Below, piece by piece: positions 829-33,090 of a DNA stretch of 45,182 nucleotides. Below the pieces are notes generated by a model. It did not search any database, was not told the DNA's origin, and saw only the letters and a program-made list of their open reading frames with translations. Position numbers and translations under genes: made by a program. Every line of letters begins with the position of its first letter. Position 1 is the stretch's first letter. This DNA comes from a virus, in IMG/VR virus record IMGVR_UViG_3300042881_002388, positions 1 through 45,182 of that record; one strand, 5' to 3'.

Positions 829-1128
829 ATGAGATCCCCCTTACACATCTGGATGAGTTTGGCCTCGGCCGACGAGCAGGCGGCCTTGGCCGAGCGGGTG
901 GGCACCTCGCGGGCGACGTTGTACCAGTACGCCAGCGGGCACCGCCAGTGCTCGGCGGACCGGGCTGGCGAGATCGAGCGCGTCACGGCCGAGATGGCAC
1001 GGAGCTCCAAGGGCAGGCTGCCCAGGCTCTACCGCACCGATCTCTCGGATGCCTGCGCCAACTGCGACTACGCGCGCAAGGCGCTCGGTGCCCGCGCCGA
1101 GGTGGTGGTGCTGGAGGCGCGCGCGTGA
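829..1128 (+). CDS. Cro/YdaS-like HTH regulator
   Basis: A 99-aa protein from ATG 829, with AGGA about eight bases upstream. Its N-terminal half has the pattern of YdaS/Cro-type antitoxin-like regulators: [42 protein letters not shown], read as two short segments [19 protein letters not shown] and [11 protein letters not shown]. The first is the helix-turn-helix, the second the conserved last helix. The C-terminal half has two cysteines in a CANC motif (near residue 75). It is the first rightward gene, divergent from the repressor, so it most likely acts as the Cro arm of the switch and may bind the operator at 781-796. Its stop lies two bases before the methyltransferase ATG, and its last bases (GTGA) contain the start of the overlapping frame. 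Confidence 0.75.
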
Positions 1129-2255
1129 CATGTCCGCCTACTACAACGAGATCGACCCCTACGCTGCCGCCTGGCTTCGACAACTCATCGCAGCCGGACA
1201 CATCGCCGACGGCATCGTCGACGAGCGATCGATCGAAGACATCCACCCCGCCGAGCTCCGGGAGTTCACCCAGTGCCACTTCTTTGCTGGCATCGGCGTT
1301 TGGAGCCGAAGTCTCCGCCTTGCTGGCTGGCCTGACGACCGAGGAGTGTGGACAGGTAGCTGCCCTTGTCAGCCTTTCTCCGCGGCAGGCAAAGGCGCTG
1401 GGTTTGCTGACGAGCGGCACCTCTGGCCCGCGTTCCACCACCTCATCGCAGAGTGCCGCCCTCCAGTCGTCTTTGGCGAGCAGGTTGCCAGCAAGGACGG
1501 CCTTACTTGGCTCGACCTTGTACGCGCTGACCTGGAAGGCTCGGGCTACGCCGTCGGGGCAGCCGATCTGTGCGCTGCGGGCGTCGGCGCGCCGCACATC
1601 AGACAGCGACTGTGGTGGGTGGCTCAGTCCGACTGCGAACGAGGACGCGGCGGGCAACTATGGCATCAAGATGCAACCGATGCTCGGATCGCAGGTCAAG
1701 CTGACCGGATGGCCAACACCAGTGAAACAGGACGCAGCCGACAGCGCGAGGACAACGACCGCTGCCCAGAAGTGGCAGACGGACGACAGGCTGGCAGCGG
1801 CGCACACATCGCTGGACGCAGCACGTCTTGCGGGCTGGACAACAACAACAACACGGGACTGGAAGGACTCGGGAGCGGACATTGCGCCGAGAGAGAACGG
1901 CAAGGAGCGGTTCGACCAGTTACCGAGGCAGGCGAACTTGGCGGGTTGGCCCACACCAATGGCGGGCACACCAGCGCAGAACGGCAACAACGCAGCGGGG
2001 AACAACGACAGCAGCCGCAAGACGGTGGAACTGTGCACGCTGGACGGCCCAGCCCGACTCACGGCCACTGGGGAGATGCTGATTGGCTCTTCTGCCGGGA
2101 TGGCAAGTGGCGGCCAGTTGAACCCGGCACATTCCCGCTGGTTGATGGGGCTTCCTCGCGAGTGGGACGACTGCGCGCCTACGGCAACGCGATCGTCTGC
2201 CAAGTCGCGCAAACCTTCATCAACGCCTACCTCGACATCCGGGGGTGATCAATGA
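1125..2255 (+). CDS. Long overlapping frame inside the methyltransferase gene
   Basis: A 376-codon open frame runs one base ahead of the methyltransferase frame over almost its whole length. A GTG at 1125 overlaps the Cro-like stop (GTGA) and has GGAGG (1113-1117) at an ideal seven-base distance. The stop at 2253-2255 overlaps the primase ATG (ATGA). The product has segments that recur in database-like phage proteins of this kind: [27 protein letters not shown], several GWxTP repeats (GWLSP, GWPTP, GWTTT, GWPTP), RDWKDSG and a tail [18 protein letters not shown]. By hand reading, third codon positions in the 1600-2100 stretch are richer in G and C in this frame than in the methyltransferase frame, which suggests real coding. 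Function is unknown. It could alternatively be a conserved shadow of the methyltransferase frame. Confidence 0.55.
1130..2248 (+). CDS. DNA cytosine-5 methyltransferase
   Basis: A 372-aa orphan C5-cytosine methyltransferase; it transfers a methyl group from S-adenosylmethionine to cytosine in phage DNA, likely protecting it from host restriction. Motif I is FAGIG (52-56). The catalytic loop is [14 protein letters not shown] with the nucleophile C80. Motif VI is degenerate (GEQV, 116-119, instead of ENV). Motif VIII is [10 protein letters not shown] (154-163), and motif X is RLRAYGNAI near the C-terminus. Residues about 168-330 form a variable, Gln/Arg-rich target-recognition region that coincides with the best-preserved part of the overlapping frame. 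ATG 1130 was chosen; the GGAGG at 1113-1117 is 12 bases away, longer than optimal. No partner restriction enzyme is nearby. Its early position suggests methylation starts before packaging. Confidence 0.88.
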
Positions 2256-4210
2256 TGGCCAACCTCACCAAGGTCACGCCTCATCTGTGGTCCCTTGAGG
2301 CACCGACCGCGATCCGCGATCTGCCCGGCTGGGTGTGCTGGCGCTTCGAGGATCACCCGGGCGAGAAGAAACCTCGCAAAATGCCCTACTACGCCAACGG
2401 CGCCAAGCGCTCCGGCGAGCAGGGCTCGCGCGAGGACATCGCCCACCTGGTCACCTTTGAGGCTGCGCGTGCGGCGGCCGTGCGCAGGGGCTTCGACGGT
2501 GTGGGCTTTGCCACGCTTGAGCAATGGGGTGTCGTCGCGGTTGACGTCGACAACTGCGTGAGGGGCGGCGAGATCCACCCCGACATCGAGCCTCTGATCT
2601 GCCAGAGCTACTCGGAGTTCTCACCGAGCGGGCAGGGCATCCGGCTGTTCTTCCGAGGCAACCTGGGTAACGGCAAAGACCTCACCGGCCCCTACGGGCT
2701 GGAGTTCTTCAGCACAAAGGGCTACGTGACGTTCACCGGCAATTCGCTCCCCGGTTGCGAGTTGCTCGGGCTCGAGAACACCGTCGCCGCGGTGCCCCGG
2801 GAGTTGATGGATCTCGCCCGTGCGCGCTTCGCGCGGGACTCCGTGCCAGAGAGCACCCGCCCCATCGGGCTCACCACGGCGCAGATCCACCAGTGCCTGG
2901 ACGCATTGCCTCACGACCTGCACTACGACGACTGGCTGCGCGTCGGCATGGCGATCCATTGCGAGACCGGTGGAAAGGGCTTCGAGCTCTGGGAGCAGTG
3001 GTCTGAGAAGAGCGAGAAGCACGGCGGGCGCCGTTACGACCAGGAGCGCTGGAGATCCTTTGGCAAGGGCAGTGGGCTCCAGGTCACGGGTGCATCACTT
3101 GTCAGTGTCGCTAACAAGTACGGTGCAGGGATCGCTCTGAATGGTCCTGCCAGCCCGGAGGAGTTCGACGTGCTGGTGGAGGCGGCCTCTGAGACGGCCA
3201 GCGAGGCCGCGCCGATCAAGTTCCCCGTCGTCCCCGCCGCTGAGTTCTCAAGCGGTGAGCCTCCCCAGTGGATCGTGAAGCACGTCCTGCCCGCCGCCGA
3301 GCTCGTGGTGCTCTACGGCGCCTCGGGCTCCGGCAAATCCTTTCTCGCGTTGGACATTGCCGGCTGCATTGCCCGGGGTGTGCCGTGGCGCGGCAAGCGC
3401 GTGCGCCAGGGGAGGGTGGTCTATATCGCCGCCGAGGGCGCAGGGGGGTTCCGCAATCGCTTGAAGGCCTACGGTATTGCCAATGAATTGGACCTGAATG
3501 GGTTGGACATGGGTGTCATCCACGCAGCACCCAACTTCCTCGACAAGGCCGATGCCGCCGCCGTGGCTGCCAGCGTCAAGAGCTCGGGCGGGGCCTCGGT
3601 GATCATCGTGGACACCTTCGCGCAGACGACGGCAGGGGGCGATGAGAACAGCGGTGAGGACATGGGCCGTGCACTGTCGCATTGCAAAGCGCTCCACCGC
3701 CACACGGGCGCCGTCGTGCTCCTGGTGCATCACTCGGGCAAAGACACCAGCAAGGGGGCCCGGGGCTGGAGCGGGATCCGCGCTGCCGCAGACGCGGAGC
3801 TCGAGGTGGTGCGCGAGGAGTCGGGCAGGTGGCTGCGGCTGTCCAAGCAGAAGGACGGCGAGGATGAATTGCGCTGGGGATTTGAGCTCGAGGTGGTGCA
3901 GTTGGGGGTTGATGAGGATCTGGACCCCATCACCAGTTGCGTGGTGGTCGAGACCGCGGTGCCCACGCCGGCCCCGAAAGCGCCCAAGTTGGGCACCGTT
4001 GAGCGCATCGCACTAGACGTTGCCGAGCAGTTGGCAGGGGGCATGGCGAGCGTGGAGGCGGTGATCAGCGGGGTGGTGGAGCGCTTGCCGGTGGTGCCAG
4101 GGGAGCGCGATCGGCGCCGCGAGAAAGCCAAACGTGCGGTAAATCACCTGTTGGAGTCTGCGATTCATTGCAGCTTGGACGATTTGGGCTTCATCACGGT
4201 GAGTGCCTGA
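2252..4210 (+). CDS. Replicative primase-helicase
   Basis: A 652-aa two-part replication protein. Residues about 20-200 resemble archaeo-eukaryotic-type primase-polymerase domains of phages and mobile elements: a VDVDN metal-site motif (97-101) and [13 protein letters not shown] (about 130-142). A PriCT-2-like linker follows ([24 protein letters not shown]). From about residue 340 comes a RepA/AAA_25-type ATPase: Walker A GASGSGKS (356-363), Walker B SVIIVDTF with D454, and LLVHHSGK as the sensor region. It would synthesise primers and unwind DNA at the fork. Its ATG overlaps the stop of the frame at 1125-2255 (ATGA) and follows the methyltransferase stop by three bases, so translation is coupled. 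The repeat-rich gap directly downstream may be its origin. Confidence 0.85.
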
Positions 4211-5120: not shown

Positions 5121-6442
5121 ACATCGATCTGGGCTACCGGCCCCGCGCCTGGCAGCGCGAGGTCCACCAGCAGCGCCGGCGCTTCACGGTGCTCGCGTTG
5201 CACAGGAGAGCCGGCAAGACCGAGTTGGCACTGCGCCAGTTGCTGGACAGCGCATTGCGCTTTGACAAGCCCCTTGGCCTGTTCCTGTACGTCGCCCCCT
5301 TCCTGCGCCAGGCGCGCGCGATCGCCTGGTCGCGGCTCCGGCAGATTGTCTCCCCCCTGGTCGAGCACGGGCTCTGCACCGTGAACGAGTCCGAGCTCTC
5401 GATCAAACTGCACAACGGCGCCACGATCCGCGTGTACGGTGCGGACAACCCCGATGCGATGCGCGGACTGCGCGTGGACGGGTTGGTGATCGACGAGGTC
5501 GCGGACGTGAAGCCCGAGGCCTGGCTCGAGGTACTGCGCCCGGCGCTGGCTGACCGCATGGGCTGGGCGATGTTCATCGGCACCCCTCACGGCGTGAATC
5601 TCTTTTCCGAGTTGTTCTTCCGCGCCCGTGAGCTAGACGACTGGCACGCCGCGCTTTACACGGTGCACGACACCGAGGCGCTCGATCCGCGCGAGGTCGC
5701 GAACTACCAGGCCTCGGTCGACGACAACACCTTCCGCCGCGAGATGCTCTGTGACTTCAGCGCCGCGGGCGAGGACCAGTTGATCAGCCTCACGCTCGTG
5801 CAGGAGGCCTGCAAGCGCCACGTGCGCCCCGACCAGTACACCTGGGCCGGTCGGGTGCTGGGCGTCGATCCTGCGCGCTTTGGCGACGACCGGAGCGTGG
5901 TGTTCCCCCGGCAGGGATTGCTTGCCGGCAAGCCGTGGGTTTACCGCGGACTGGACAACATGACGCTTGCCGATCGCGTCGCCCGGCACATCGAGGAGTG
6001 GAAGCCTGACGCGGTGTTCATCGACGCGGGCAACGGGGCGGGCGTCATCGACCGACTGCGGGCGCTGCATCACGACGTGGTCGAGGTGCACTTCTCGGGC
6101 TCCCCGCAGCATCCCCGCTTTCTGAACAAGCGCGCCGAGATCTGGTGGGAGCTCCGCGACTGGCTCGCCGCCGGCGGCGTGATCCCCGATCTGGTCGATC
6201 TCAAGCAAGACCTCGCCTCGCCCACGTACAAGTTCACGCCCGCGGACAAGATCCAGTTGGAATCGAAGGACGATCTGAAGGGCCGCGGCCTGCCCAGCCC
6301 CGACTTGGGCGACGCCCTGGCACTCACGTTCAGCTATCCGGTGCACCGTGCCGAGACCGTGCGGGCGCGCGCCGAGCGCATGGGCATCGCGGTGCGCGAT
6401 GAGCTCTCCGCACTGGATCACGACCCCTACGCCCGCCTCTGA
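5117..6442 (+). CDS. terL: Terminase large subunit (CTG start)
   Basis: A 441-aa packaging ATPase and nuclease. The ATPase has Walker A RRAGKTE (30-36), Walker B LVIDE (123-127) and the coupling motif IGTPHG (154-159). The RNase-H-like nuclease has D251 in GVDPARFGDD, D303 in FIDAGNGAG and D399 in DLGDALAL. The conserved start of the family, NIDLGYRPRAWQREVH, is present, but the frame has no ATG, GTG or TTG between an upstream stop (5006-5008) and GTG 5189, which would delete it. CTG 5117 overlaps the small-subunit stop (CTGA) and has AGGGAG (5102-5107) nine bases upstream, so it is taken as the start. Coupled re-initiation would explain use of this rare codon. Confidence 0.88.
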   Translation: MNIDLGYRPRAWQREVHQQRRRFTVLALHRRAGKTELALRQLLDSALRFDKPLGLFLYVAPFLRQARAIAWSRLRQIVSPLVEHGLCTVNESELSIKLHNGATIRVYGADNPDAMRGLRVDGLVIDEVADVKPEAWLEVLRPALADRMGWAMFIGTPHGVNLFSELFFRARELDDWHAALYTVHDTEALDPREVANYQASVDDNTFRREMLCDFSAAGEDQLISLTLVQEACKRHVRPDQYTWAGRVLGVDPARFGDDRSVVFPRQGLLAGKPWVYRGLDNMTLADRVARHIEEWKPDAVFIDAGNGAGVIDRLRALHHDVVEVHFSGSPQHPRFLNKRAEIWWELRDWLAAGGVIPDLVDLKQDLASPTYKFTPADKIQLESKDDLKGRGLPSPDLGDALALTFSYPVHRAETVRARAERMGIAVRDELSALDHDPYARL

Positions 6443-6475
6443 GTGTCCGTGACGCCGAGAGCGCTGCCGCACAAT
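6443..6475 (+). promoter_or_regulatory. Late promoter copy 2 (before portal operon)
   Basis: GTGTCCGTGAC (6443-6453), 16 nt, then CACAAT (6470-6475), the least TA-like -10 of the five. It lies directly after the terminase stop and about 30 bases before the small proline-rich gene, leaving a normal leader. Confidence 0.65.
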
Positions 6476-6506
6476 CGGCCGCAGACACTCGGAGACCCGT
6501 GCCGCC

Positions 6507-6698
6507 ATGTGCATGAAATCCCCCAAGATGCCCGACCCTCCGCCGCCCCCGCAGCCGCTGAAGCCGCCGGACGTGGATCTCAAGGCTATGGGTAAGCGCA
6601 ACCGCGCAGGCGGCATGACGGGCGGGAGTCTGTTGACCGGCGCGAGCGGGCTGACAGGCGGCATGCCCACCGGTCGCACCTCGCTCCTCGGTGGCTGA
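6507..6698 (+). CDS. Small proline/glycine-rich virion-operon protein
   Basis: A 63-aa protein from ATG 6507. It opens MCMKSPKMPDPPPPPQPLKP, then a Gly/Thr/Leu-rich tail with repeated TGG and LLTG units. Small proteins of this look are regularly found just before the portal gene in this phage group. No enzymatic motif or membrane segment is present and it is probably unstructured. Its stop shares one base with the portal ATG (TGATG), so the two are coupled. A role in head or connector assembly is likely from position only. CGGAGA about 15 bases upstream is a weak ribosome site. Confidence 0.7.
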   Translation: MCMKSPKMPDPPPPPQPLKPPDVDLKAMGKRNRAGGMTGGSLLTGASGLTGGMPTGRTSLLGG

Positions 6699-8383
6699 TG
6701 GATCAACCGCTGAATCGCCGCCAGCGCATCCTCTCGCGCAAAAGCGCGCTGTGGACCGAGCGCTCGTCCTGGGTCACGCACTGGCGTGAGATCAGCGACT
6801 TCCAGCAGCCGCGCGCCGGGCGCTTCGTGGCGACCGATCGCAACCGCGGCGACAAGCGCACCAACAACATCATCGACAACACCGCCGTCTTCGGTGCGCG
6901 CACGCTCGCCGCGGGACTGATGTCGGGCGTCACCAGTCCCGCGCGCCCGTGGTTTCGCCTCGAGATCGAAGACAAGGACATGATGGAGGCCGGTGCCGTC
7001 AAGACTTGGCTGCACGATGTCTCTGCGTTGATGCGCCGCGTGTTTGCCGCGAGCAACACGTATCGCGCACTGCACCACCTCTACGAGGAGCTGGGGCTCT
7101 TCGGCACCGCCGCGAGCGTGGTGCTGCCCGACTTTGACAACGTGATCCACCATCACCCCATGACGATCGGCGAGTACGCGCTCGCGACCGATCAGCGGGG
7201 GAACGTGAATTCCTTGATTCGCGAATTCCAAATGACCGTCGGCCAGATGGTCGAGCAGTTCGGGATGGACGCCTGCAGCCAGACGGTGCGCGATCTGCAC
7301 ACCCGCGGCAACTACGATGCGTGGGTGGACGTGCTGCACGTGATCGAGCCCCGGCGCGATCGGGACGTGCGCAAGCTGGACGCGCGGAACATGCGCTTTG
7401 CGTCGATCTACCTCGAGCCCGGCAAGGACAACTCGGACAAGTTCCTGAGCGAGTCGGGCTTTGAGCAGTTCCCCGTGCTGGCGCCGCGCTGGAGCGTGAC
7501 GGGCAATGACATCTACGGCTCGAGCCCTGGCATGGAGTGCCTGGGCGACGTGAAGCAGTTGCAGCACCAGCAACTGCGCAAGGGCCAGGCGATCGACTAC
7601 CAGGTGAATCCGCCCCTGCAGGTTCCCACCCGGTTCAAAGAGGCCAACAAGGCGCGCTTGCCGGGTGGTGTTTTTTACGTGGACGCGCAGGGCCAGAACC
7701 AGGCGGTGCGCACGGCCTTCGAGGTGCAACTGAACCTCCAGCACTTGATGATGGACATCCAGGACGTGCGCGAGCGGATCCGCAGCGCGTACTACGCGGA
7801 TCTCTTCCTGATGTTGGCCAACGATTCGCGCTCCGGTGTCACCGCCCGCGAAGTTGCCGAGCGCCACGAGGAGAAGCTCCTGATGCTCGGCCCCGTGCTC
7901 GAGCGCCTGCACAACGAGCTCTTGGAACCCCTGATCGACATCACCTTTGAGCGCTGCTCGCGCGCAGGGATCCTGCCGCCCGCACCGCCCGAGCTTCAGG
8001 GCATGGATCTCAAGGTCGAGTTCATCAGCGTGCTGGCACAAGCCCAGCGTGCGGTCGCCACCGGCGGCATGGACCGCCTGCTCGCCACCGTGGGGCAGTT
8101 GGCCGCGCTCTCGCCCGCGATCATCGACAAGGTGGACTTCGACCAGGTGGTCGATGACTACGCCGATGCCTACGGCGTGAACCCCAAGATCGTGGTGCCC
8201 GATGCGGATGTCGCAGCGTTGCGCGAGCAGCGCGCCGCCGCCCAGCAGGCGCAGATGTCGGCCGCCGTCGCCCCGCAGGCCGTGGCGAGCGCGAAGACCG
8301 CAAGCGAAATCAACACCGACAATCTGCGCGATGTGATGAGTCAATTCACGGGCTACAACACGCCAAGCGCGGGGTTCGTGTAA
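6698..8383 (+). CDS. Portal (head-tail connector) protein
   Basis: A 561-aa protein of the T7 gp8-like head-tail connector family; twelve copies would form the DNA entry ring of the capsid. The N-terminal part carries the family pattern WREISDFQQPRAGRF, TNNIIDNTA and LAAGLMSGVTSPARPWF. The middle has GNDIYGSSPGMECLGDVKQL and YQVNPPLQVP, a stem and crown region that is highly conserved. The C-terminal part is helical and Ala/Gln-rich (REQRAAAQQAQMSAA), as in gp8-type barrels. Length is close to the usual 530-570. Its ATG overlaps the preceding stop by one base. It follows the terminase genes and late promoter 2. Confidence 0.9.
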   Translation: MDQPLNRRQRILSRKSALWTERSSWVTHWREISDFQQPRAGRFVATDRNRGDKRTNNIIDNTAVFGARTLAAGLMSGVTSPARPWFRLEIEDKDMMEAGAVKTWLHDVSALMRRVFAASNTYRALHHLYEELGLFGTAASVVLPDFDNVIHHHPMTIGEYALATDQRGNVNSLIREFQMTVGQMVEQFGMDACSQTVRDLHTRGNYDAWVDVLHVIEPRRDRDVRKLDARNMRFASIYLEPGKDNSDKFLSESGFEQFPVLAPRWSVTGNDIYGSSPGMECLGDVKQLQHQQLRKGQAIDYQVNPPLQVPTRFKEANKARLPGGVFYVDAQGQNQAVRTAFEVQLNLQHLMMDIQDVRERIRSAYYADLFLMLANDSRSGVTAREVAERHEEKLLMLGPVLERLHNELLEPLIDITFERCSRAGILPPAPPELQGMDLKVEFISVLAQAQRAVATGGMDRLLATVGQLAALSPAIIDKVDFDQVVDDYADAYGVNPKIVVPDADVAALREQRAAAQQAQMSAAVAPQAVASAKTASEINTDNLRDVMSQFTGYNTPSAGFV

Positions 8384-8406
8384 CCCCGCCACAGTGAGGC
8401 CGCGAT

Positions 8407-9480
8407 GTGCTGCGACCTGAACTCCTTGCACTGATTCCCCACTGCCAGAGCGAGCTCCAGCGCGAGCGCGTGAGGTCTATCGCCCAGCACGGCCTTGACG
8501 CCACCTCGCGCACCCTGGGCGTGGACGCCGGGAGCCTGCGCAATCTGTTGCGCAAGCTGAAGGTGCGCGCGATTGAGCCTCCCCTCACTGCGCCACCGAT
8601 CGCCGCCCCCGCTGCCATCGAGATCGACGAGCCGGTGTCCGAGATCGATGTGGATGCACTGGTCGCGCGCCGGGTGCGCCAGTTCGAGCGCAAGGTGATC
8701 GCCGAGCAGTCGCGCGCACTGTTCACGGCACGGGTCAATCTGCCCGGGCCGATCGGGGTGCTGTTCTTCGGTGACCCGCACGTCGATGACGACGGCACCG
8801 ATTTGGGGCTGTTGTTGAAGCACGCCGCCCTCGTGCGCGAGACCGAGGGGCTCTTCGGTGCGAACGTGGGCGACTCGACCAACAACTGGATCGGGCGCCT
8901 GGCGCGCTTGTACGCGCAGCAATCGACCACCGCGGCCGAGGCCTGGGCGCTCTGCGAGCACTTCATCCACGCCGTGCGCGATTGGTTGTTCATCCTCTCT
9001 GGCAACCACGACGCCTGGTCAGGCGCGGGCGATCCGCTCTCGTGGATCTGCCGCCAGGGCGGGAACCTCTACGAAACCAATGTCCGCATGCGGATCGACT
9101 TCCCCAACGGGGCTGAAGTGTTCGTGAACGCCCGGCACGACTTCTCGGGGCACTCGATGTGGAACCCCGCTCACGGCGTGGGTAGAGCCGTGCAGCAGGG
9201 GATGTGGGATGACCTGGCCATTGCCGGGCACCGGCACGTCTCGGGGTACATGGTGCTGAAAGCCCCCACCGATGGGCGCATCTGTCACGCAGTCCAGGTC
9301 GCGAGCTACAAGACTTACGACCGCTACGCCAAGGAAAAGGGCTTCCGCGACCAGCTCGTCTCGCCCGCGGTCGTGGTGATCATCGACCCTGATAAACCGA
9401 TCGGCTCCCCCTCGCGCCTGAGCGTCTTCCACGACGTGGAGGAGGGGGTCGAGTTCCTGAAGTGGAGGCGCGCACGATGA
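8407..9480 (+). CDS. Calcineurin-like metallophosphoesterase
   Basis: A 357-aa protein starting at GTG 8407 with GAGG seven bases upstream. Residues about 15-60 look like a small HTH (SRTLGVDAGSLRNLLRKL). From about residue 118 the metallophosphoesterase signature appears in order: GDPHVD, GDSTNN, SGNHDAW, ARHDFSGHS and AGHRHVSG. These place two metal ions and hydrolyse phosphomono- or diesters. The substrate is unknown; nucleic acid is plausible because of the HTH-like front end. It sits between portal and scaffold genes, a position where related podoviruses also carry such an enzyme, so it may act during infection or packaging. Its stop overlaps the next start (ATGA). Confidence 0.82.
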   Translation: MLRPELLALIPHCQSELQRERVRSIAQHGLDATSRTLGVDAGSLRNLLRKLKVRAIEPPLTAPPIAAPAAIEIDEPVSEIDVDALVARRVRQFERKVIAEQSRALFTARVNLPGPIGVLFFGDPHVDDDGTDLGLLLKHAALVRETEGLFGANVGDSTNNWIGRLARLYAQQSTTAAEAWALCEHFIHAVRDWLFILSGNHDAWSGAGDPLSWICRQGGNLYETNVRMRIDFPNGAEVFVNARHDFSGHSMWNPAHGVGRAVQQGMWDDLAIAGHRHVSGYMVLKAPTDGRICHAVQVASYKTYDRYAKEKGFRDQLVSPAVVVIIDPDKPIGSPSRLSVFHDVEEGVEFLKWRRAR

Positions 9481-20055: not shown

Positions 20056-21483
20056 ATGCCGCAGGTTCCGGTCTACGACGGCCCGCAGCTCGCCACGGCA
20101 CCGCTGCGCACCCCGACGGCGCGCCCGCTCGATGTGTCCTCCGGCACCCGCGCGATCGGGCAGGGCCTGGCCAATCTGGGCGAGGGCATCGACCGCTATC
20201 AGGAACGCGAGGCGCAGACCGAGGCCTATGACGTTGAGAGCCGCGTCACCTCGGACTGGTTGAAGTGGGACAGCGAGGCCCGCGCCCAAGGCCGCGGAGA
20301 GAATGTCGATGCCTACCAGAAGTCCGCCACCGACTGGTGGAACACCGCCGCCGAGACCTACGGCAAGGATCTCTCGCCCCGCGCGCGTGCGCTGATCGGA
20401 CGCTCGCTCCAGCAAAAGCGCGTGCAGGCCGAAGCGTCCGTGCTGGGCTTCACCTCGGCCGAGCGCGAGCGCCACGCCGACGAGGTGGCGAACGCGGACA
20501 TCGCCACCACCATCCAGTTCGGGGTCACCAACGGCGACATCGCCACTACCAAGGACCAGGTGCGCGAGAAGGTCGCCGTCGTCGGTGCCCGCAAGGGCTG
20601 GACCACCGAGCAGGTGCAGGCGCGCGTGGCGGGCTACGTGTCCGATATGCACATGGCCCAGATCGACAACATCCCCTCCGCTGAAGAAGCGCTTGCGTAT
20701 TTCGACAACAACGTCAATGAGATCGACGCCGGCAAGCAGGGCGCCGTGCGCAAGAGCCTGGAGCGCAGCGTCGAGATTGAGGCCAAGCAGCGCGAGGCCG
20801 ATGCGGAGAAGGCGAAGCGCGAGGCCGAGGATCGCCTGGTCGATTCCGCCTGGGGCCTCTACGCAGGGGGTCAACCTGTACCACCCAGTGTGCTAGCGGC
20901 ACTTCCCGGCCGTGAGGCTGCGCAGCTTGCCAATGCGATTGAAAGCCGTGCGGATCGCGAGGCCAAGGGCACCACGATCAAAACAGACGACAAGCTCTAC
21001 AACCAGACCCTGCTCGACATCGCATCGGGTAAGCAGGTGGATCTGCGCCCGCTTGTGGAGTCGTTTGCGCAGGCGGACATGGACCGACTGGTCAAGCTCC
21101 AGCAGGACATGACCAAGCCTGACGCAGCCGCCCAGGTGGCGACGACCGAGCAGATGTTCTCCCTGTTCAAGGGCGACATGGACGAGTCGGACTTTCTTGA
21201 TTTCAAGCGTGCCGCTTACGACGAGATCTCCCGGTTCCAGCAAGAGAAAGGCCGTGCACCGAATTACGACGAGAAGACCAAGATCATGGACGACCTGCTG
21301 ATTGATAAGGTCGTCCCCGGTACGTTCTGGGATGACGAGACCCCGCGTTACCAACTTGATCGCGAGCAGCGGGTTCAGGAAATGGGCCCCTATGACCCCT
21401 TCACGGTGGGCAAGACCTATCAGGACAAAAGCGGGAACAAGGCCATTTACCGCGGCAACGGCAACTGGGAGTCGGTGAAATGA
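20056..21483 (+). CDS. gp15-like internal virion protein
   Basis: A 475-aa largely helical protein beginning MPQVPVYDGPQLATAPLRTP, a conserved start of the internal core proteins of this phage group. The next block, IGQGLANLGEGIDRYQEREA, and long Glu/Ala/Arg-rich segments predict extended coiled-coil helices. It would form the middle ring of the core stack and help build the trans-envelope channel. It sits between the gp14-like protein and the giant protein. Its stop overlaps the next ATG (ATGA). No enzymatic motif is seen. Confidence 0.8.
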   Translation: MPQVPVYDGPQLATAPLRTPTARPLDVSSGTRAIGQGLANLGEGIDRYQEREAQTEAYDVESRVTSDWLKWDSEARAQGRGENVDAYQKSATDWWNTAAETYGKDLSPRARALIGRSLQQKRVQAEASVLGFTSAERERHADEVANADIATTIQFGVTNGDIATTKDQVREKVAVVGARKGWTTEQVQARVAGYVSDMHMAQIDNIPSAEEALAYFDNNVNEIDAGKQGAVRKSLERSVEIEAKQREADAEKAKREAEDRLVDSAWGLYAGGQPVPPSVLAALPGREAAQLANAIESRADREAKGTTIKTDDKLYNQTLLDIASGKQVDLRPLVESFAQADMDRLVKLQQDMTKPDAAAQVATTEQMFSLFKGDMDESDFLDFKRAAYDEISRFQQEKGRAPNYDEKTKIMDDLLIDKVVPGTFWDDETPRYQLDREQRVQEMGPYDPFTVGKTYQDKSGNKAIYRGNGNWESVK

Positions 21484-24400
21484 GTTTTGACCCGAGCACT
21501 GCTGAACCGCTCGCGGCCTCTCCCACCTTTGACCCCACCAGTGCCGCCCCGTCAGACGATGCACTCCTGCGCGCACAGATCCGCCGCGCCATGGGCACCG
21601 ACGCGCTGCGTGCTTCGCAGGCAAGCCAGCTTGCATTTGCAACAGGGCTGCCGCCGGATGTAGCACTGCGCAACTTTGATCAGTTGAAGCGCGAGAGCTC
21701 GGTCGCGGAGACCGCGCGCGCCCTGGAAGTCGACCCCCTCATCGGGGACTACTTCCGCTACGCCCCGCTCTTTGCTGCCAAAGCGCAGAAAGACGCCTCG
21801 GCACTGGTCGACGTGCACGGCACGATCAAAGCATTCAAAGGCCCCGAGCCGACCTTTGAGAACATTGCCCGAGGCCTCGCCGCCTCCATGCCCCAGGGGC
21901 TGGAGATGGCTCGGCGCGGCATGCAGGGCCAGATGCGGGACTTCCTGCAATGGGCCGGGCTCGTGCAGCCCGATCCCGTCGAGGATGCGGATCTCGCGCG
22001 CAAGATCGCGCAATCGCAGTCCGCCTCAGACTTCACGCGGCCCAACATCGAGAGCCGCACGGGTCGTGCGATCTATGGCGGCGTGGAGAGCACGCTCCGC
22101 ACCTTGCCCGGCCTTGCCGCATCGATCGCAACCCGCAGCCCCACGCCAATGCTGGCGACGATGGGTGTGCAGACCCAAGCCGAGGCCTACGGCAAATACC
22201 GCACCCGCGGGGGTGCGCCCCTTGAGAGTTTCCTCGGTGCCACGGGGGAGGGCGCGGTCGAGGTCGCGACCGAGCTCCTCCCGACCAAATTCCTGACCGA
22301 CTCCCTCGGCAAGCGCGGTGTCGGCGAGTTCCTCGCAGGGCTGATCGCGCGCGAGGTGCCGACCGAGCAGGTGGCGACCTTCCTGCAGGATGCCATCGAC
22401 ACCGCCGTCGCCAACCCCGACAAGACGTGGCCCGAGTTCTTTGCCGAGCGACCTGGTGCCGCCTACGACACGCTGGTGTCAACGCTCACGCAGAGCCTTA
22501 TCACCGGCGGCGCGGTGGCAACGCTGAACAAGATTGCTGGCACGGCTGACCAGATGGGACAGGCCGAAGCGAGTGCCCGGCAACTGCAGAACGTCTTTGC
22601 CGCGGCCTCGATGGTGCAGATGCGGGCGCACGCCCCGCAGGACTTTGCCAGCGCTATGCAAGACCTTGCGCAGCGCGAGGGCGCAACCGAATCGATCTTC
22701 ATGGACGCAGAGGTACTGGCGCAGTCGGGGATCGACATCGCCCAGAGCTTTCCCTCCGCGGCTGCGCAGATGGAGGACGCGCTTGCGCTGAACACCGTGG
22801 TCGAGCTGCCCCTCGGGGAAGTGCTCGCCGCCATTCCCGGCACGCCGCTCGAGGAGCTCTTTCTCCAGAACGCCCGCACCAGCGAGAACGCCTGGAGCCT
22901 AGCGGAAGCCTCGCAGATCGCAGAACAAGGCCAGCAATTCATCGAGCAAGAGGCCGAGCGCGTCCTGCAGCAGGCACAGGACCAGAGCGCCTGGCAGTCC
23001 GAGGTCGACACCGTCCGCGACACGATCAAGGCCCAGCTCGACCAGGCGGGGCGGTTCACGTCGGACGCGAACGAGGCCTACGCGCGCCTGCAGTCGGCGT
23101 TCTTCAGCACGATGGCCTCGCGCACGGGCATGACGCCCACCCAGCTCTACGAGCAGTTCTCGCTCAAGGTCGGCGCGCAGGCGGGGCAGGGGGCGGTGCT
23201 GAACGAATCTGCACCCGAGCCGACACTTAATGATTTCATTGATTCAGGTGTGGATGGGCAAGCCCTGCATATTGCGGATGACGTGAATGCACCGGCAATT
23301 TTGCGCGATGGATTGCGCGCTGCCAGTGACGGATACGTTTACCTTTGGGCCAATGGGTTGGACGCTGACTCCGAGCGCGTGATGCGTGAGGCGCGGCAAA
23401 CGCGAAACCCTGACCTTGGCTGGGACGAAGCCGGCGCAATTCCAGACGCATATTTTTCGGTCGATCTGGCTGCATTGCAGGACCGACTGGAGCCCGACCC
23501 TTACACGGATGGGGGAATGCGCGTTAAAGGGGACATTCCCCCAGAGGCACTGCGCCTATGGGATGGTCAAAGGTTTGTTCCAGCCACCGGCAACTCGGGC
23601 GCGTTTGATCCGAATGATCCGAATATCCTGAGGCAGAGTGCGGTCCAGCGCCTGCAGATGGTGGCCAAGCGTGGCGTTCGTCAAACTGCCAATCGGGTAA
23701 TGATCAGCGCCGAAGAGCGCGCAGCAATTCAGTCCTCGTCGGCAGCCACTGGCGTGCCAGTGGCCGAGATCGAAGCTGCGGTGACCAAGACCAAACTGGC
23801 GCACCCGGTGGCACAAGGCTGGGAACCTCTGACCTATTCCCGCACGGTCGTCGACGACACCACTGGCGACCGCAAGATCACGCACGAGTACAAGACGATC
23901 TCCTACCAGTTCAGCACGGACGCTGACGGCAAGTCCTTGGAGCCTGGCACGGCCAACTACAAGCGCCGCGTCAACGCCGTGGCCCGCTCGATGGCAGAAG
24001 AAGTGCGCACCGTGTTCCGCCGCGCTGGCGCGGGCGATGCCAACGCACGCAACATCCTGGCGCAGGCGGGCTGGTACAAGGCCCTGCGCAAGCGCCTGCG
24101 TCAGGAGTTCGGCGGACTGGGTGATCTGTTTGCGGATCTGCTCGGCGCAACCAGTCCCAACACGCCCGTGCGTGACAACTGGTTCAATGCGGTCGACGCG
24201 CTTCGCCGCGCCAGCCGCGGAGACTTCGACAACCTGATCGTCCAGTGGGAGGCATACTTCGATCGCGTCGACGCGCTTGAGACCGACCTTCGCTCGTGGT
24301 TCAACGAGCAGATGGCGGAGGGCCTGAGCAAGAAGGCGGTCAAGGATCTCCCCGAGTACCAGGAGAAACTCAGCGCGCTGCGCGAGGCGCGCAAATTCCC

Positions 24401-27400
24401 CGACGCCCTGCTGCCCAAAAAGGAATCCGGTGCCAAGTACGGGTTCAACGGTCGCAACGTCGCGCGCGCGATGGTCGACCTCTGGCGCGTCGTCAAGAAC
24501 TCTGACCCTGACATCGCCCGCGGTGGCACGGCACCCAAAGCGCTGAACTTCAGCGGCAACCTGATCGGGTTCCGCGAGCGGGCCACCATCGACGTGTGGG
24601 CCGCGCGCATGCTGCAGCGCCTGGCTGGACGGCGGCGTATTCCCAGCGTGGCCGAGACGGGCGTATCGGGTGAAATGCGCGAGGACGCCTCGACTACACT
24701 GCAGTTCGGAATGGGCCAAGACGTGTTCTCCGAGTCCGTCAAGCGGATTCGCGCAGACAACGAGCTGAACACCGACCCGATCCTGGCAGAGATCAACGAC
24801 GACGACCTGCAGGCCGTCGTGTGGTTTATCGAGAAGGAACTCTGGACGGTCAACAACTGGACCAACGCGGCAGGCGAAGGCGGATCCTTTGAGCTTGAGG
24901 CCAATCTGACCGGCACCTCGCAGCAGGACCGGGTCAAGGAACTGCGCAGCATCATCGATGCCTCGCCGCCGACGTCCGACGTGATAGCAGCAGGGCAAGA
25001 CACCAGCGCAGCGCTTAAGGCGATTGAAGACCACGAGCGTGAGCACGCAGTCGAGATTGAGGAACTGCGCAAGCTGCAGACCGGCGAGATTCCTCCGTAC
25101 AAGGGATCGAAGACGCGCATGGGGGAGCTTGCCAAGATCGCACGCCCGCCGGTGGAGGCGACGCGCTTGCTTGGAAACGTGGATCGCGCCAAGGCGCGCC
25201 TAGAGGCGTTCAACGCCCGCAAGGCGGCTGCCAAGGCGGAACTGACCTCGCTTGAGCGCGAGGTTGATCGATTCGTCGGTGGTCTGTCGATCCAGATGTC
25301 GATGGACACCCAAGGCGTTGACTTTGTGCCGGCCGATGCGGACATGGCTCGGCTGGCCGACGCGATTCGCCAGGCTGTCTACGCGGCGGATGACGGCAAC
25401 ACGGTGCTCGGGTCGAAGGCGCTTTCCACCGAGGGGCGCTACGGCGGCGTGGAGCGATCGCTCGACCTGGAGGTCGTGGCGCGCGAGGGGTACGACGCAA
25501 ACACCCTCTGGCTGGAGATGCTGCGCCAGGCGCAGGAGGCCCGGCAGGACAGCACGTTCCTCTCGAGGGTGCTGCGCGCCAACGAGGACGTGGATCCCCT
25601 GCGGCACCGACCCGGTGTCGAGATCTACTTCCGCAGCGCGGCCGACGCCAAGAACCTCGATGTGGTGCTGGCGGACCTGGCCAAGGAAGGTGTCGAGTTC
25701 CTGACCGTCATCGTCGACGGTCGCCGCCTGGCCAGCACGATGGCCGGTGAAATGCCCGCCGCGGTCGGCGTGCGCCTGCAGTACGTGCCAGAGTTTGAGC
25801 AACGCTACGGAATGGACGACCTTAGCGGCTTGGACGATTTAGCACTTGCTGATAAAATCAGTGCCAGAGCGGAGGAGATGGACAAGCTCGCCGCGCGCGT
25901 GCTCACCTCGGTTGAGGGTGTGTCGTTTGCCGGTCAGTTCTGGTACGACACACAAGTGGCGTTCAGCGCCGAATATCAGGAGAAGATTGATGCCCTCACA
26001 ACTGGAAATGCTGAAGGCCAAACTGCCCAAGCTAGAGGCGGAATTTGGGCCGGCCAACCCGTACGTGCAGGGCTTGAAAATGCAGATCGCCAGCTACGAG
26101 AAACCTCCAGCGGAGAACCCGATGGAGACGTACTCGGTGGGAATGCGCCCGGCACCGAAGGGTCGAACCTCCTAGCCCAAGGCCCCCGCGGCACCTTCAA
26201 TCCCCAGACACTCCTGATCAGCCTGGGCGAGAGCGCGGATCTCTCGACCTTCCTGCACGAATCCGGGCACTTCTTCCTCGAGGTGATGGCAGACCTGGCA
26301 TCCCGCCCCGACGCACCCCAGCAGGTCGTCGATGACATGAACCGCGCGCTCGCGTGGTTCGGCGTGCCGGATCTTGCCACCTGGAACGCCTTCACGCTGG
26401 ACGAGAAGCGCGAGCACCACGAGAAGTGGGCAGAGGCCTTCGAGCAGTACCTGCTGGAAGGCAAAGCCCCCAGCACCGAGCTCCAGTCGCTCTTCCGGCA
26501 GTTCCGTGCCTGGCTGATGAACGTCTACCGCTCGCTCACCGACTTCATGGCAGGGCGCAACCTGCAAGTGAACGACGAGATCCGCCAGGTGTTCGGACGC
26601 ATGCTCGCCACCGACGAGCAGATCCAGCGCGCCGAGGAGCAGGCAGGCCTGCTGCCCGACTTCGATGCCACAAACGAAGCCATTGAGCGCCTGCAGGAGC
26701 GCAGCCTGCGCGCGCTGAAGTGGACGCTGAACGCACGCAGCAAATTCCTGAAGCTCTTCACGAAGGAAGCGCAGGATCTGCGCAAGGGCATTGCCGCCGA
26801 GGTGGTGGCCGAGGTGTCGCAGCGCCCGATCTACCGTGCGATGCGGTGGCTGCGCAAGGGCGAGATGACCAACGAGGCAGGCGAGGAGATCAAGGCCGAG
26901 AAGGGCTTCCGGTTTTCTACCGAAGCGCTTGCCGAGATGTACCCCGAGGGCATGCTGGCACGCCCCAACCTGGACGCCCTGAAAGGCATGACCGCCAAGG
27001 GCGGCCTGCACCCCGACATCGTCGCCGGCATGTTCGGGTTCCAGAGCGGTGACGAACTGGTGAAGGCGATCCTCGCCGCCGAGCCGATGAAAAGCGTGGT
27101 CGAAGGCATCGTCGATCAGCGCATGCTCGAGCGCCACGGCGATCTCGCCACGCCGGAAGCCCTGGAAGCCGCTGCCAACGAGGCTGTGCACAACGAGGCC
27201 CGCGCACGCGCACTGGCTGCGGAGCTGAAGAGCCAGAGCGAGGCGATGAACCCGCGCGCCAACACCGGGCGCAACGACGCGCGCGGACGTCCGATCACCG
27301 TGAACGCACTGCTCGCCGCGGCCAAGGAGTTCGGCAAGAACCTCGCTGCCCGTCGCACGCTGAAGAGCTTGAAGAAGTCGGTGTATTTGCACCGTGCCGC

Positions 27401-30164: not shown

Positions 30165-30192
30165 CTGCGTGGGTGGCAGGAGACCTCACCGG

Positions 30193-33090
30193 ATGACCAT
30201 TTCAAGCACGGCCCGGCGAGCAGGGCCTTTCCAGGGCAATGGGTCTGCGACCTCGTTTGCGTTCACCTTCAAGGTCTTCACCACCTCTGACATCGCGGTG
30301 ACCATCGCCGACAGCTCCGGCATCGAGACGGCGCTGGTGCTGGACACGCACTACACCGTCACGCTGAACGCGAACCAGGACACCTCGCCCGGCGGCAGCA
30401 TCACCTATCCCATCACGGGATCCCCGCTCCCTGCCGGCGCCAAGCTCACCGTCGTCGGTGATCTGGACTTCGACCAACCCCTCGACATCCCCGCGGGCGG
30501 CAACTTCTCGCCCATCGCGCTCGAGAACGAGCTCGACCGGATCGTGATGCAGATCCAGCAACTGGACGAGCGCGTCGATCGCTCAATCACGCTGCCCGTC
30601 AGCTCCGCAGCATCCCCGGTTCTGCCGGCCGCCGAGGCGGGCGAGGTGATCGGCTGGGACCAGACGGCATCCGCGCTGGTGAACTATTCGATCGACGAGC
30701 TGATCACCTCGGTCACGTTCGCCGACTGGACCTTCGACACCTTCACCGGCGACGGACTGACGACAGCGTTTGCACTGGGCTCAAACCCCGGCAGCCTCGG
30801 CAACGTGGACGTCACCGTCGACGGGCTCTCAATGGTGCCGGGGGTGGACTTCAGTCTGTCTGGTAGCACCATCGCCTTCACGGCAGCGCCCGGCGTCGGC
30901 GATGAGATCCTGGTGCGCTACGGCGAGAGCGCCGTGCAGGGCGGGCTCACGGTCACCACAGAGCGCCAGCTCGCCACCGCATCCCAGACCGTGTTCACAC
31001 TGGCGAACACCTACACGCCAGGCGGCAACAACGTCTCGATCTATGTGAACGGCGTGCGCTTGAGCCCCGGCGTGGACTTCGCCGAGACGAGCGCGAACGT
31101 GGTGACGATGACCGCAGGCCTCGCGCTGAACGACGAGGTGCTGTTCGTGGTCGGGGGCCAGGTCGCTCAGGCCGTGGGCTCCGGCAACGTGGGCTGGACG
31201 CAAGCCGGTAGCGGAGCGGTCGCGCGCACCGTGCAGGACAAACTCCGCGAGCGCCTGAGCGTCCGGGACTTCGGCGCACTGGGCGATGACGTCACCGACG
31301 ATCTCGCCGCCTTCAATCTCGCCACCGCGGCGCTGCTGCCGTGGCAGACGCTCTACATCCCGCCCGGCCAGTACCGGCTCTCCAACACCTGGATCATCCA
31401 GAACCGCTACCGCCACCGCATCCTCTGCGAGGGCGTGCTGAAACCCCACGGGAGCTTCAGCGACTACCTGGTGAAGTTCAGCAACAGCACGGGCGACCCG
31501 CTCGTGCCCTCAATGGGCCAGCACGGCTACGTGCAGACGCTCTGGCTCGATTGCGAGTGGAAGTGCCGCGGGGTCTACATCGAAAAGAGCTACGAGTCGA
31601 CCTTCGAGCACCTGGTGATCTGGCGACCCTACGGGCACGGGCTGAAGACCCCGATGCTCCAGGAGGTCACGTTCCTGCAGCCTGCCATCATCTCCGGCAA
31701 GGCGCGCGTGGACGCAACCATCGCGGCAGCAAGCGTCTGGAGCTCGGTCACCACGTACACGGTAGGGCAGGTGGTGAAGGGGGACTACCCGACCTACGCC
31801 GCCGGCACCACCTACACCAAAGACCAGGCGGTGCTCTCGGCGGGCTTCGCCTACCGCTCGCTGATCAACTCCAACCTCGGCAACACGCCGGCTACCAACG
31901 CGGACAAGTGGGAGCGGATCCCGATCGAGTATTTTACCGCTACCGCGCTGGCGTCGAACCTGAACAAAAACCCTCACGACGCGAGCACCGACTACACGAC
32001 GCGCTCGAGCACGGCGGGCAACAAGTTCTGGACCCCGACCTACGCCGACGAGGCCGCCTGGGAGATGACGGGCGAGGGTGCGACGATCGACAACGCGAAG
32101 GTGTGGAACTTCATCTCGCGGGCGAACGCGCACGACATCACCATGCGCGTGGACGCGAAGGAAACGTCGCTCTCGGTGCTGAAGCTGGAGCTCTTCGCCT
32201 GCCAGTTTCACTCGATCACCACCGCCTACATGAACGCCTTCAACTTGGACCCAGCCTACACCGCTGCCTACGGGGGCACGATCACCGCGCCCACCTGCCC
32301 GGCGCTGCTCTGGCTCGCTGACTCCTCGAACACGAAAGTCTTCGGCGGGCAGTTCCAGTCGGGGAACCTGGACTGGTGCAAGGGCCTCCTGGTCGGCGGT
32401 CGCAACATCGGCATGTCCAACCCCCGCACGATGCTGATCGGCACCCACTTCGAGGGCACTGCGGGCGGATCGAACCAGACTGGCATCAGCGTGCAGCGCT
32501 CCACGGAGAGCTTCGGCAGCGCCTGGTACCAGGAAGGCATCTCGAACGTCATGCCGGGCACCAACTGCGTCGAGAAGTGGGATCTGAACGGCGAGACCAT
32601 CCGCGAGCTCTTCGGTGTCGCCACGCTGACAGCCGGCAACGCCTCGGTCGTGGTGACGTTCCCGCAGCCGATGATGGCCATCCCCGATCTGACGCTCACG
32701 GTCTCCGGCGGCGTTAACTCGCGCCTGAAGGGCTTGTCCCTGAAGACCGAATCGGAGAGCACCACGGGGTTCACGATCAAGGTCTCGGGGCTGTGGCACG
32801 GCCCTGTCCAGACCAAGGCCTTTACCGCAGCCGGCGGCGTCAACCAGGACTCCACCTACACCCACAGCACCGGCGTGACTGCGGCGGGCTACATGATCCT
32901 TTCCCAGTCGGCGGATGTGGGTACGGGGTTCCGCACCTTCGCGCAAACAAACAGCACCACCGCGATCACCGTGCGCGCTCCGGCTGCGCCTGCCGCCGAC
33001 AGCACCTGCAAGTGGGCTGCGGTCTGGGAGGACGCAGCGCCCTTTGATCTGAGCATTGAGTGGCACGCCGTCGTGCCCGGCGAAATTTGA
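30193..33090 (+). CDS. Tail fibre/tailspike 1 with pectate-lyase domain
   Basis: A 965-aa adhesin. ATG 30193 was chosen, after AGGAG, over a GTG 24 bases earlier. Residues 1-130 are the virion-attachment domain of this phage group: RRAGPFQGNGSATSFAFTF, and an end with NELDRIVMQIQQLDERVDRS (coiled coil). Two about 65-residue beta repeats follow (GDGLTTAFALGSNPGSLGNV; SQTVFTLANTYTPGGNNVS). From about 345 begins a right-handed beta-helix: LSVRDFGALGDDVTDDLAAF, then LYIPPGQYRL, the entry motif of pectate-lyase-3-type tailspikes that degrade surface polysaccharides. The C-terminal 200 residues form a beta-rich binding or trimerisation unit (KVSGLWHGPVQTKAFTAAGG). As the only spike with the long attachment domain, it probably docks directly to the tail. 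Confidence 0.85.
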   Translation: MTISSTARRAGPFQGNGSATSFAFTFKVFTTSDIAVTIADSSGIETALVLDTHYTVTLNANQDTSPGGSITYPITGSPLPAGAKLTVVGDLDFDQPLDIPAGGNFSPIALENELDRIVMQIQQLDERVDRSITLPVSSAASPVLPAAEAGEVIGWDQTASALVNYSIDELITSVTFADWTFDTFTGDGLTTAFALGSNPGSLGNVDVTVDGLSMVPGVDFSLSGSTIAFTAAPGVGDEILVRYGESAVQGGLTVTTERQLATASQTVFTLANTYTPGGNNVSIYVNGVRLSPGVDFAETSANVVTMTAGLALNDEVLFVVGGQVAQAVGSGNVGWTQAGSGAVARTVQDKLRERLSVRDFGALGDDVTDDLAAFNLATAALLPWQTLYIPPGQYRLSNTWIIQNRYRHRILCEGVLKPHGSFSDYLVKFSNSTGDPLVPSMGQHGYVQTLWLDCEWKCRGVYIEKSYESTFEHLVIWRPYGHGLKTPMLQEVTFLQPAIISGKARVDATIAAASVWSSVTTYTVGQVVKGDYPTYAAGTTYTKDQAVLSAGFAYRSLINSNLGNTPATNADKWERIPIEYFTATALASNLNKNPHDASTDYTTRSSTAGNKFWTPTYADEAAWEMTGEGATIDNAKVWNFISRANAHDITMRVDAKETSLSVLKLELFACQFHSITTAYMNAFNLDPAYTAAYGGTITAPTCPALLWLADSSNTKVFGGQFQSGNLDWCKGLLVGGRNIGMSNPRTMLIGTHFEGTAGGSNQTGISVQRSTESFGSAWYQEGISNVMPGTNCVEKWDLNGETIRELFGVATLTAGNASVVVTFPQPMMAIPDLTLTVSGGVNSRLKGLSLKTESESTTGFTIKVSGLWHGPVQTKAFTAAGGVNQDSTYTHSTGVTAAGYMILSQSADVGTGFRTFAQTNSTTAITVRAPAAPAADSTCKWAAVWEDAAPFDLSIEWHAVVPGEI

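Follow-up and report, generated by a model that had tools for sequence, protein, structure and literature searches.

A phage C5-cytosine methyltransferase locus carries two overlapping frames under selection and very probably encodes one two-chain enzyme

Dual coding at a phage C5-cytosine DNA methyltransferase (MTase) locus is established here computationally, to a high standard: both overlapping frames are under selection. The locus lies in the window, i.e. the whole 45,182-nt stretch of viral DNA that was analysed. Residues 1-90 of the MTase belong to the MTase frame, residues 91-165 to both frames, residues 166-315 and 331-345 to the alternative (+1) frame, and residues 346-360 again to the MTase frame. 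On sequence evidence, we consider it highly likely that the locus encodes one two-chain m5C methyltransferase, in which alpha (MTase frame) would contribute motifs I-VIII and X and beta (+1 frame) the target-recognition region (TRD) and motif IX.

Layout of the locus and matches of the two frames

The original prediction had placed two long frames on the same DNA, and both were found. The MTase frame runs from an ATG at 1130 to 2248 (+ strand, 372 aa) and has a GC content of 65%; the +1 ORF, one base on from it, is open from 456 to 2255 and includes 1125-2255. In Pfam, the MTase frame matched PF00145 above the Pfam cut-off (E=2e-11), over motifs IV-VIII only, and in PHROGs it matched phrog_363 (E=2e-86). 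The +1 frame matched phrog_31772 (E=5e-44) and phrog_1008 (E=3e-27), both labelled ‘DNA methyltransferase’, while searches of Pfam, NCBIfam and PDB sequences gave no useful match for it. Among the phage-collection matches, 496 records matched the MTase frame versus 197 the +1 frame. The features of the locus are as follows.

1130-2248, + strand: alpha ORF, C5-cytosine DNA methyltransferase catalytic subunit (372 aa; motifs I-VIII and X, separated by a long variable linker; PF00145, phrog_363)
1283-1297, + strand: motif I (FAGIG), alpha frame, near-invariant in alignments A2/A4
1364-1372, + strand: motif IV with catalytic PCQ, alpha frame; P79 and Q81 invariant, C80 near-invariant (A2/A4)
1391-1395, + strand: AAAGG, candidate ribosome-binding site, 8 nt upstream of TTG 1404
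1404-2255, + strand: beta ORF, a proposed specificity subunit read in the +1 frame (283 aa when counted from TTG; open in all relatives; codon-position signature)
1404-1616, + strand: beta N-terminal segment over alpha motifs V-VIII (GSTLYxLTWK...LRASxRRTS), with constraint on both frames
1475-1486, + strand: motif VI in the form GEQV (usual form ENV), alpha frame; G116-E117-Q118-V119 invariant (A2/A4)
1595-1612, + strand: motif VIII (HIRQRL), alpha frame; R158 and R160 invariant (A2/A4)
1617-1706, + strand: beta GWxTP cassette 1 (30 aa)
1707-1832, + strand: beta GWxTP cassette 2 (42 aa), whose close copies are confined to the nearest relatives
1833-1943, + strand: beta GWxTP cassette 3 (37 aa), present in many other phages as the second or third unit, in copies of 84-95% identity
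1944-2054, + strand: beta GWxTP cassette 4, ending at a conserved RLTATGEM segment
2118-2165, + strand: motif-IX-like stretch (16 residues), beta frame, with alternative-frame selection in bin 331-345
2159-2197, + strand: motif X (13 residues), alpha frame, with MTase-frame selection in bin 346-360
2252-4210, + strand: next gene, primase/helicase (PF08707, PF13481), whose ATG overlaps the beta stop codon (ATGA)

Elsewhere in the window, a single ORF of 2856 aa (21480-30050) lies between the virion genes and the tail fibre/spike genes. Two tail-spike-like ORFs (33101-34633 and 35714-37009), with overlapping PHROG matches near their N-termini, come after a 973-aa tail ORF (30169-33090), which suggests several receptor-binding proteins. 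On the minus strand, a 932-aa open frame (5633-8431) opposite the head-tail adaptor gene (6698-8383) is probably a GC-rich by-product.

Each segment of the locus is assigned to a frame by its codon-position pattern

Relatives were fetched from IMG/VR by the MTase frame and by the +1 frame, 80 loci each. Differences were counted by MTase codon position in 15-codon bins over 60 independent pairs. Residues 1-90 showed the ordinary pattern, with 56-74% of the differences at position 3. At residues 91-165 position 3 slowed and identity in the alternative frame rose up to 0.79-0.87, so that this stretch is constrained in both frames. Over residues 166-315 the pattern was flipped: position 1, which is position 3 of the alternative frame, held 38-56% of the differences, and alternative-frame identity was higher than MTase-frame identity (e.g. 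0.75 vs 0.52 at 226-240). The motif-IX-like bin 331-345 reached an identity of 0.95 in the alternative frame vs 0.83 in the MTase frame, with differences of 0.161 at MTase position 1 and 0.044 at position 3. The bin 346-360, containing motif X, flipped back (MTase-frame identity 0.95, 63% of differences at position 3). Thus, the MTase frame owns motifs I-VIII and X, and the TRD and the motif-IX-like stretch are part of the alternative frame.

This signature, with the TRD evolving under the +1 frame, bears out the earlier placement of the alternative frame over the target-recognition region. The selected protein there is that of the alternative frame, and the MTase frame looks like stop-free filler. 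The claim that the MTase frame holds all key motifs did not stand. Motif I, the PCQ of motif IV, the E of motif VI, the RxR of motif VIII and the GN of motif X, as expected of a C5 MTase, are present in alpha, but alpha lacks a folded TRD and has no recognisable motif IX; both seem to be located in the other frame. This assessment follows from the disordered alpha linker, the selection on the other frame and the end of the PF00145 match at motif VIII.

Predicted structures and the putative motif IX

The AlphaFold2 model of alpha was mostly confident at residues 1-172 (catalytic domain) and 357-371 (motif X helix) and of very low confidence at 175-345, with no ordered TRD; by Foldseek, its fold matched M.HhaI and M.HaeIII. 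On single-chain enzymes PF00145 gave an end-to-end match, whereas on alpha it was confined to motifs IV-VIII. The AlphaFold2 model of beta alone was poor (mean pLDDT 59), best at residues 21-60 (pLDDT 67-86) and 211-230, and a fold search with this low-confidence model returned no meaningful match. Such a model of the lone chain could be compatible with an obligate partner and is not counted as evidence.

Directly before motif X, beta carries the pattern LxPxxxRWLMGxPxxW, which is under strong beta-frame selection. From the pattern, its position and the adjoining motif X only, we assign this stretch as the putative motif IX; comparison of the beta tail with canonical single-chain C5 enzymes, by HMM-HMM and HMM methods, was not significant. 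The assignment of LMGxPxxW is supported by the arrangement in mycobacteriophages KingMidas and Noelle. Their alpha stops after motif VIII, and their +1 frame contains the recognition region, then FPEWMMGWPAGW, then the GN of motif X, all in one frame.

A probable two-chain methyltransferase

The original picture, in which the MTase is complete and an unrelated unknown protein lies over its TRD, is not supported, given that the MTase frame looks like filler in that region and the alternative frame is selected. Since it is the alternative frame that carries the selected sequence in the TRD region, the TRD and motif IX of this one enzyme most probably come from the second protein. We propose that frame 0 would be translated into alpha, consisting of the catalytic motifs I-VIII, a linker of ~150 residues that by itself encodes little information, and motif X. 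Beta, with its N-terminal segment, GWxTP array and motif IX segment, would be initiated internally in the +1 frame, most likely at TTG 1404. Alpha and beta would assemble into the enzyme, in which beta would pick the target sequence(s) via its cassettes and alpha would carry out methyl transfer, and the methylation would probably shield the phage DNA from host restriction. Enzyme activity, complex formation and multiple specificity are predicted features of this scheme.

Of the alternatives, the best surviving, albeit unlikely, one is that the frames encode proteins unrelated to each other, one an MTase that is self-sufficient and has a TRD of its own, the other overprinted and with a different role, such as regulator or anti-restriction factor. 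Both frames are indeed translatable and conserved, the beta model is poor, and the functions of overprinted genes are often unrelated. However, within the TRD the MTase frame evolves as a shadow of the beta frame and models as disordered, beta was never found without alpha in 80 bacterial-genome loci, and the counterpart frame of the mycobacteriophages carries motif X itself.

The linkage of the two frames is permanent. In all 80 bacterial-genome loci found by beta alone, alpha was present in the overlapping frame, and a portable stand-alone beta gene, which was sought in bacterial genomes, was not found. The 80 loci came from Alpha-, Beta- and Gammaproteobacteria, Desulfovibrio relatives and bins labelled Acidobacteria, Omnitrophota and Kiritimatiellae.

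Beta probably starts at an internal TTG codon

The alternative frame had been predicted to begin at its own GTG at 1125 and to comprise 376 codons. The frame is present and under selection, but a different start is favoured: beta probably begins at TTG 1404 and is 283 aa long. GTG 1125 is unsupported because relatives have +1 stops at residues 1-38 and the frame comes under selection from about residue 91 on. This selection boundary falls at a start codon. The Phe at residue 92 is encoded in 81/84 cases by TTT, which yields TTG in the +1 frame, whereas the Phe codons in MTase residues 1-91 are TTT in 71/423 and TTC in 352/423 cases. A start at residue 92 or 93 was found in 89 of 106 relatives, compared with 36 in shuffles, and the stronger ribosome-site forms AAGGA, AGGAG or GGAGG were located upstream in 35/106 relatives vs 16.5 +/- 3.6 in synonymous shuffles. 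The start-site sequence is AGGGAGGAAAATTTGATG in N15, a near-ideal SD-ATG arrangement, and AAGGAGATGGGTTTG in epsilon15. A marine subgroup has no start codon at residues 92-94, and the position of the beta start may differ there.

The lack of a start near residue 92 in the marine subgroup, and A/G-rich runs there such as GAAAAGGGA, would also suit a programmed +1 frameshift that fuses the alpha N-terminus to the TRD and motif IX, replacing internal initiation or operating alongside it; M.AquI-like layouts show that split chains can be rearranged. We regard such a frameshift as very unlikely, because TTG/ATG starts and ribosome-binding sequences are in clear excess at residue 92, N15 has its near-ideal SD-ATG, and a single +1 shift would omit motif X from the product in the window-type layout.

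The +1 frame is kept open across relatives

An alt-blind set of 47 non-redundant loci was picked by the MTase alone, regardless of the +1 frame, and as a control synonymous codons were shuffled within each gene, with protein and codon usage kept. All 47 loci contained a +1 ORF of 269-411 codons, compared with shuffle means of about 120-250. The openness of the +1 frame reached p <=0.03 in 45/47 loci, and the +2 frame was as expected. The overprinted gene that had been suspected is thus genuine, being open beyond the shuffles in every alt-blind relative and under selection together with the MTase frame. Stops in the alternative frame of relatives with a conserved MTase, which would have spoken against it, were looked for at MTase residues 65-354 in 106 non-redundant relatives, and none was found. 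Stops in the +1 frame of these relatives occurred only at residues 1-38 and from 355 onward, except for residue 64 in N15. The result was the same in relatives of lower GC (0.47-0.52), namely Shelly (Paenibacillus phage), Lc-Nu (Lactobacillus phage), Bas78, NINP13076 and N15, for whose +1 frame p was about 0.001-0.006.

In the reciprocal test of the TRD region, in which alt-synonymous codons were shuffled, 0 alpha-frame stops were seen vs 280 expected; the third frame, as control, had 686 stops vs 704 expected. The MTase frame is therefore still kept open across the TRD. Purifying selection, as expected of an overprinted gene and its host frame, was found in both frames. That the +1 frame is open by chance through GC-rich codon bias, and looks conserved because the MTase is, has practically no chance of being correct: although the gene is 65% GC and some relatives also have long reverse frames, a GC artefact was ruled out by shuffles that kept protein and codon usage and failed to reproduce the openness and by relatives in which the effect holds at 47-52% GC, the +2 frame behaves as expected, and through the TRD alternative-frame identity exceeds MTase-frame identity, which is unexpected of a by-product.

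GWxTP cassettes move as whole blocks

The repeated GWxTP units noticed in the alternative frame were confirmed, with four cassettes in the window and 1-5 per beta across 214 betas; the units were mostly 30-45 aa long (median 36). Cassettes were compared in phage pairs whose alpha residues 1-165 were 95-99.5% identical at the DNA level. In such pairs, 55% of the units had a counterpart of at least 80% identity in the partner, 39% had none and 6% were intermediate, and these two-peaked unit identities point to whole-unit replacement. The 470 internal units fell into 127 families, and the larger families occurred at first, second and third positions. Some pairs with 99%-identical alpha (L051/L039 and L024/L042) differed by one clean unit, and clean unit gains or losses amounted to 34-37 aa at 99% alpha identity. 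Altogether, phages with near-identical catalytic domains differ by gain, loss and movement of entire GWxTP cassettes.

Tandem exchangeable modules in the recognition region, as in multispecific phage C5 MTases, are present here. It is rather likely that the cassettes give one phage methyltransferase several targets at once, and that their swapping re-programs which host restriction sites are hidden. To a comparable degree we favour the view that swapped cassettes must be stop-free in two frames and that the catalytic chain reads the array as a low-information linker.

Distribution and possible origin

The recurrence of such pairs in phages, suggested earlier, was substantiated: the layout occurs in phages and prophages of many hosts, also in phages of Paenibacillus, Lactobacillus, Synechococcus and enterobacteria whose sequences have little in common with the window. 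As for its origin, a single-chain ancestor may have lost the frame after motif VIII, giving a split enzyme, and a second frame change before motif X may have put motif X back into alpha. On that origin, the TRD and motif IX would be the old part of beta, the segment over motifs V-VIII would be overprinted, and the alpha linker would be a frame-shifted shadow of the TRD.

Several individual loci showed peculiarities. Alpha is broken and beta intact in three of them, by nonsense in L103 (a viral contig; CRDEK*RPV) and in L194 near 2811 and by a frame change in L232, which may reflect sequencing error or decay; L194 and L232 belong to the bacterial-genome loci. Salmonella phage SAP012 (L167, 2001-2795) has a complete alpha/beta locus for which its record gives no CDS. 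In Synechococcus phage Sc-Yong805-2 (L291, 1427-2356), beta is annotated as a hypothetical protein and the catalytic alpha was missed, and in Erythrobacter phage R6L (L005) gp55, annotated as ‘cytosine-specific methyltransferase’, covers no more than the end of the beta frame. In Mycobacterium phage Yeet (L290), the annotated methyltransferase gene contains an HNH endonuclease gene (2256-2495) in a different frame and is followed by a second ‘methyltransferase’ ORF, which may point to a homing insertion into a gene of this type.

Discussion

It is rare for long overlapping genes on the same strand to be established with clear selection in both frames, and this one is found in hundreds of phage and prophage loci. 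The locus offers a direct test of fast diversification in dual-coding DNA, with one frame nearly unconstrained except for being stop-free, and the cassettes are a natural library for the recognition code of m5C methylation. If the two-chain reading is true, the annotation of many phage ‘DNA cytosine methyltransferases’ misses or mislabels half of the enzyme, and recoded expression of the annotated ORF would mislead.

Parts of this layout are already on record. In the papers searched for overlapping MTase frames in phages, this family did not turn up, nor did any analysis of its function or selection. Annotators have recorded the beta frame as an ORF, as the ‘Mte8-like protein’ of K1ind2 and the ‘g55 internal gene’ of Shelly; for PhiXhv-28 two ‘DNA methyltransferase’ genes are annotated, so that the second ORF is recorded. 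By match, phrog_1008 and phrog_31772 are the beta frame, labelled ‘DNA methyltransferase’ and given no separate role.

The multispecific C5 methyltransferases of SPbeta, phi3T and rho11 carry tandem exchangeable modules of ~40 residues between motifs VIII and IX on a single chain. The tandem modules are shared with the locus described here, whereas their one frame and one chain differ from the overlapping second frame. M.AquI is a C5 enzyme split within the variable region, its beta containing the distal variable region and motifs IX-X (PMC3404938). Like the window, it shows a natural alpha/beta split after motif VIII, but motif X is found in beta in M.AquI and in alpha in the window. The M.AquI distribution, with distal variable region, IX and X on the small chain, is seen in KingMidas and Noelle (L286, L287), not in the window.

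The closest known system is M.EcoHK31I, to which M.EaeI is similar; as in the window, the small ORF of M.EcoHK31I is nested within the large one in a different frame. Its target is YGGCCR (Lee, Kam and Shaw 1995). The two chains of M.EcoHK31I comprise a large one with motifs I-VIII, X and a predicted TRD and a small one with motif IX (PMC3404938). By motif layout as described, the window resembles it as a putative two-polypeptide C5 enzyme whose large chain bears motifs I-VIII and X. The difference concerns the TRD, which is predicted in the large chain of M.EcoHK31I, whereas that of the window is under small-chain selection and takes the form of several swappable cassettes.
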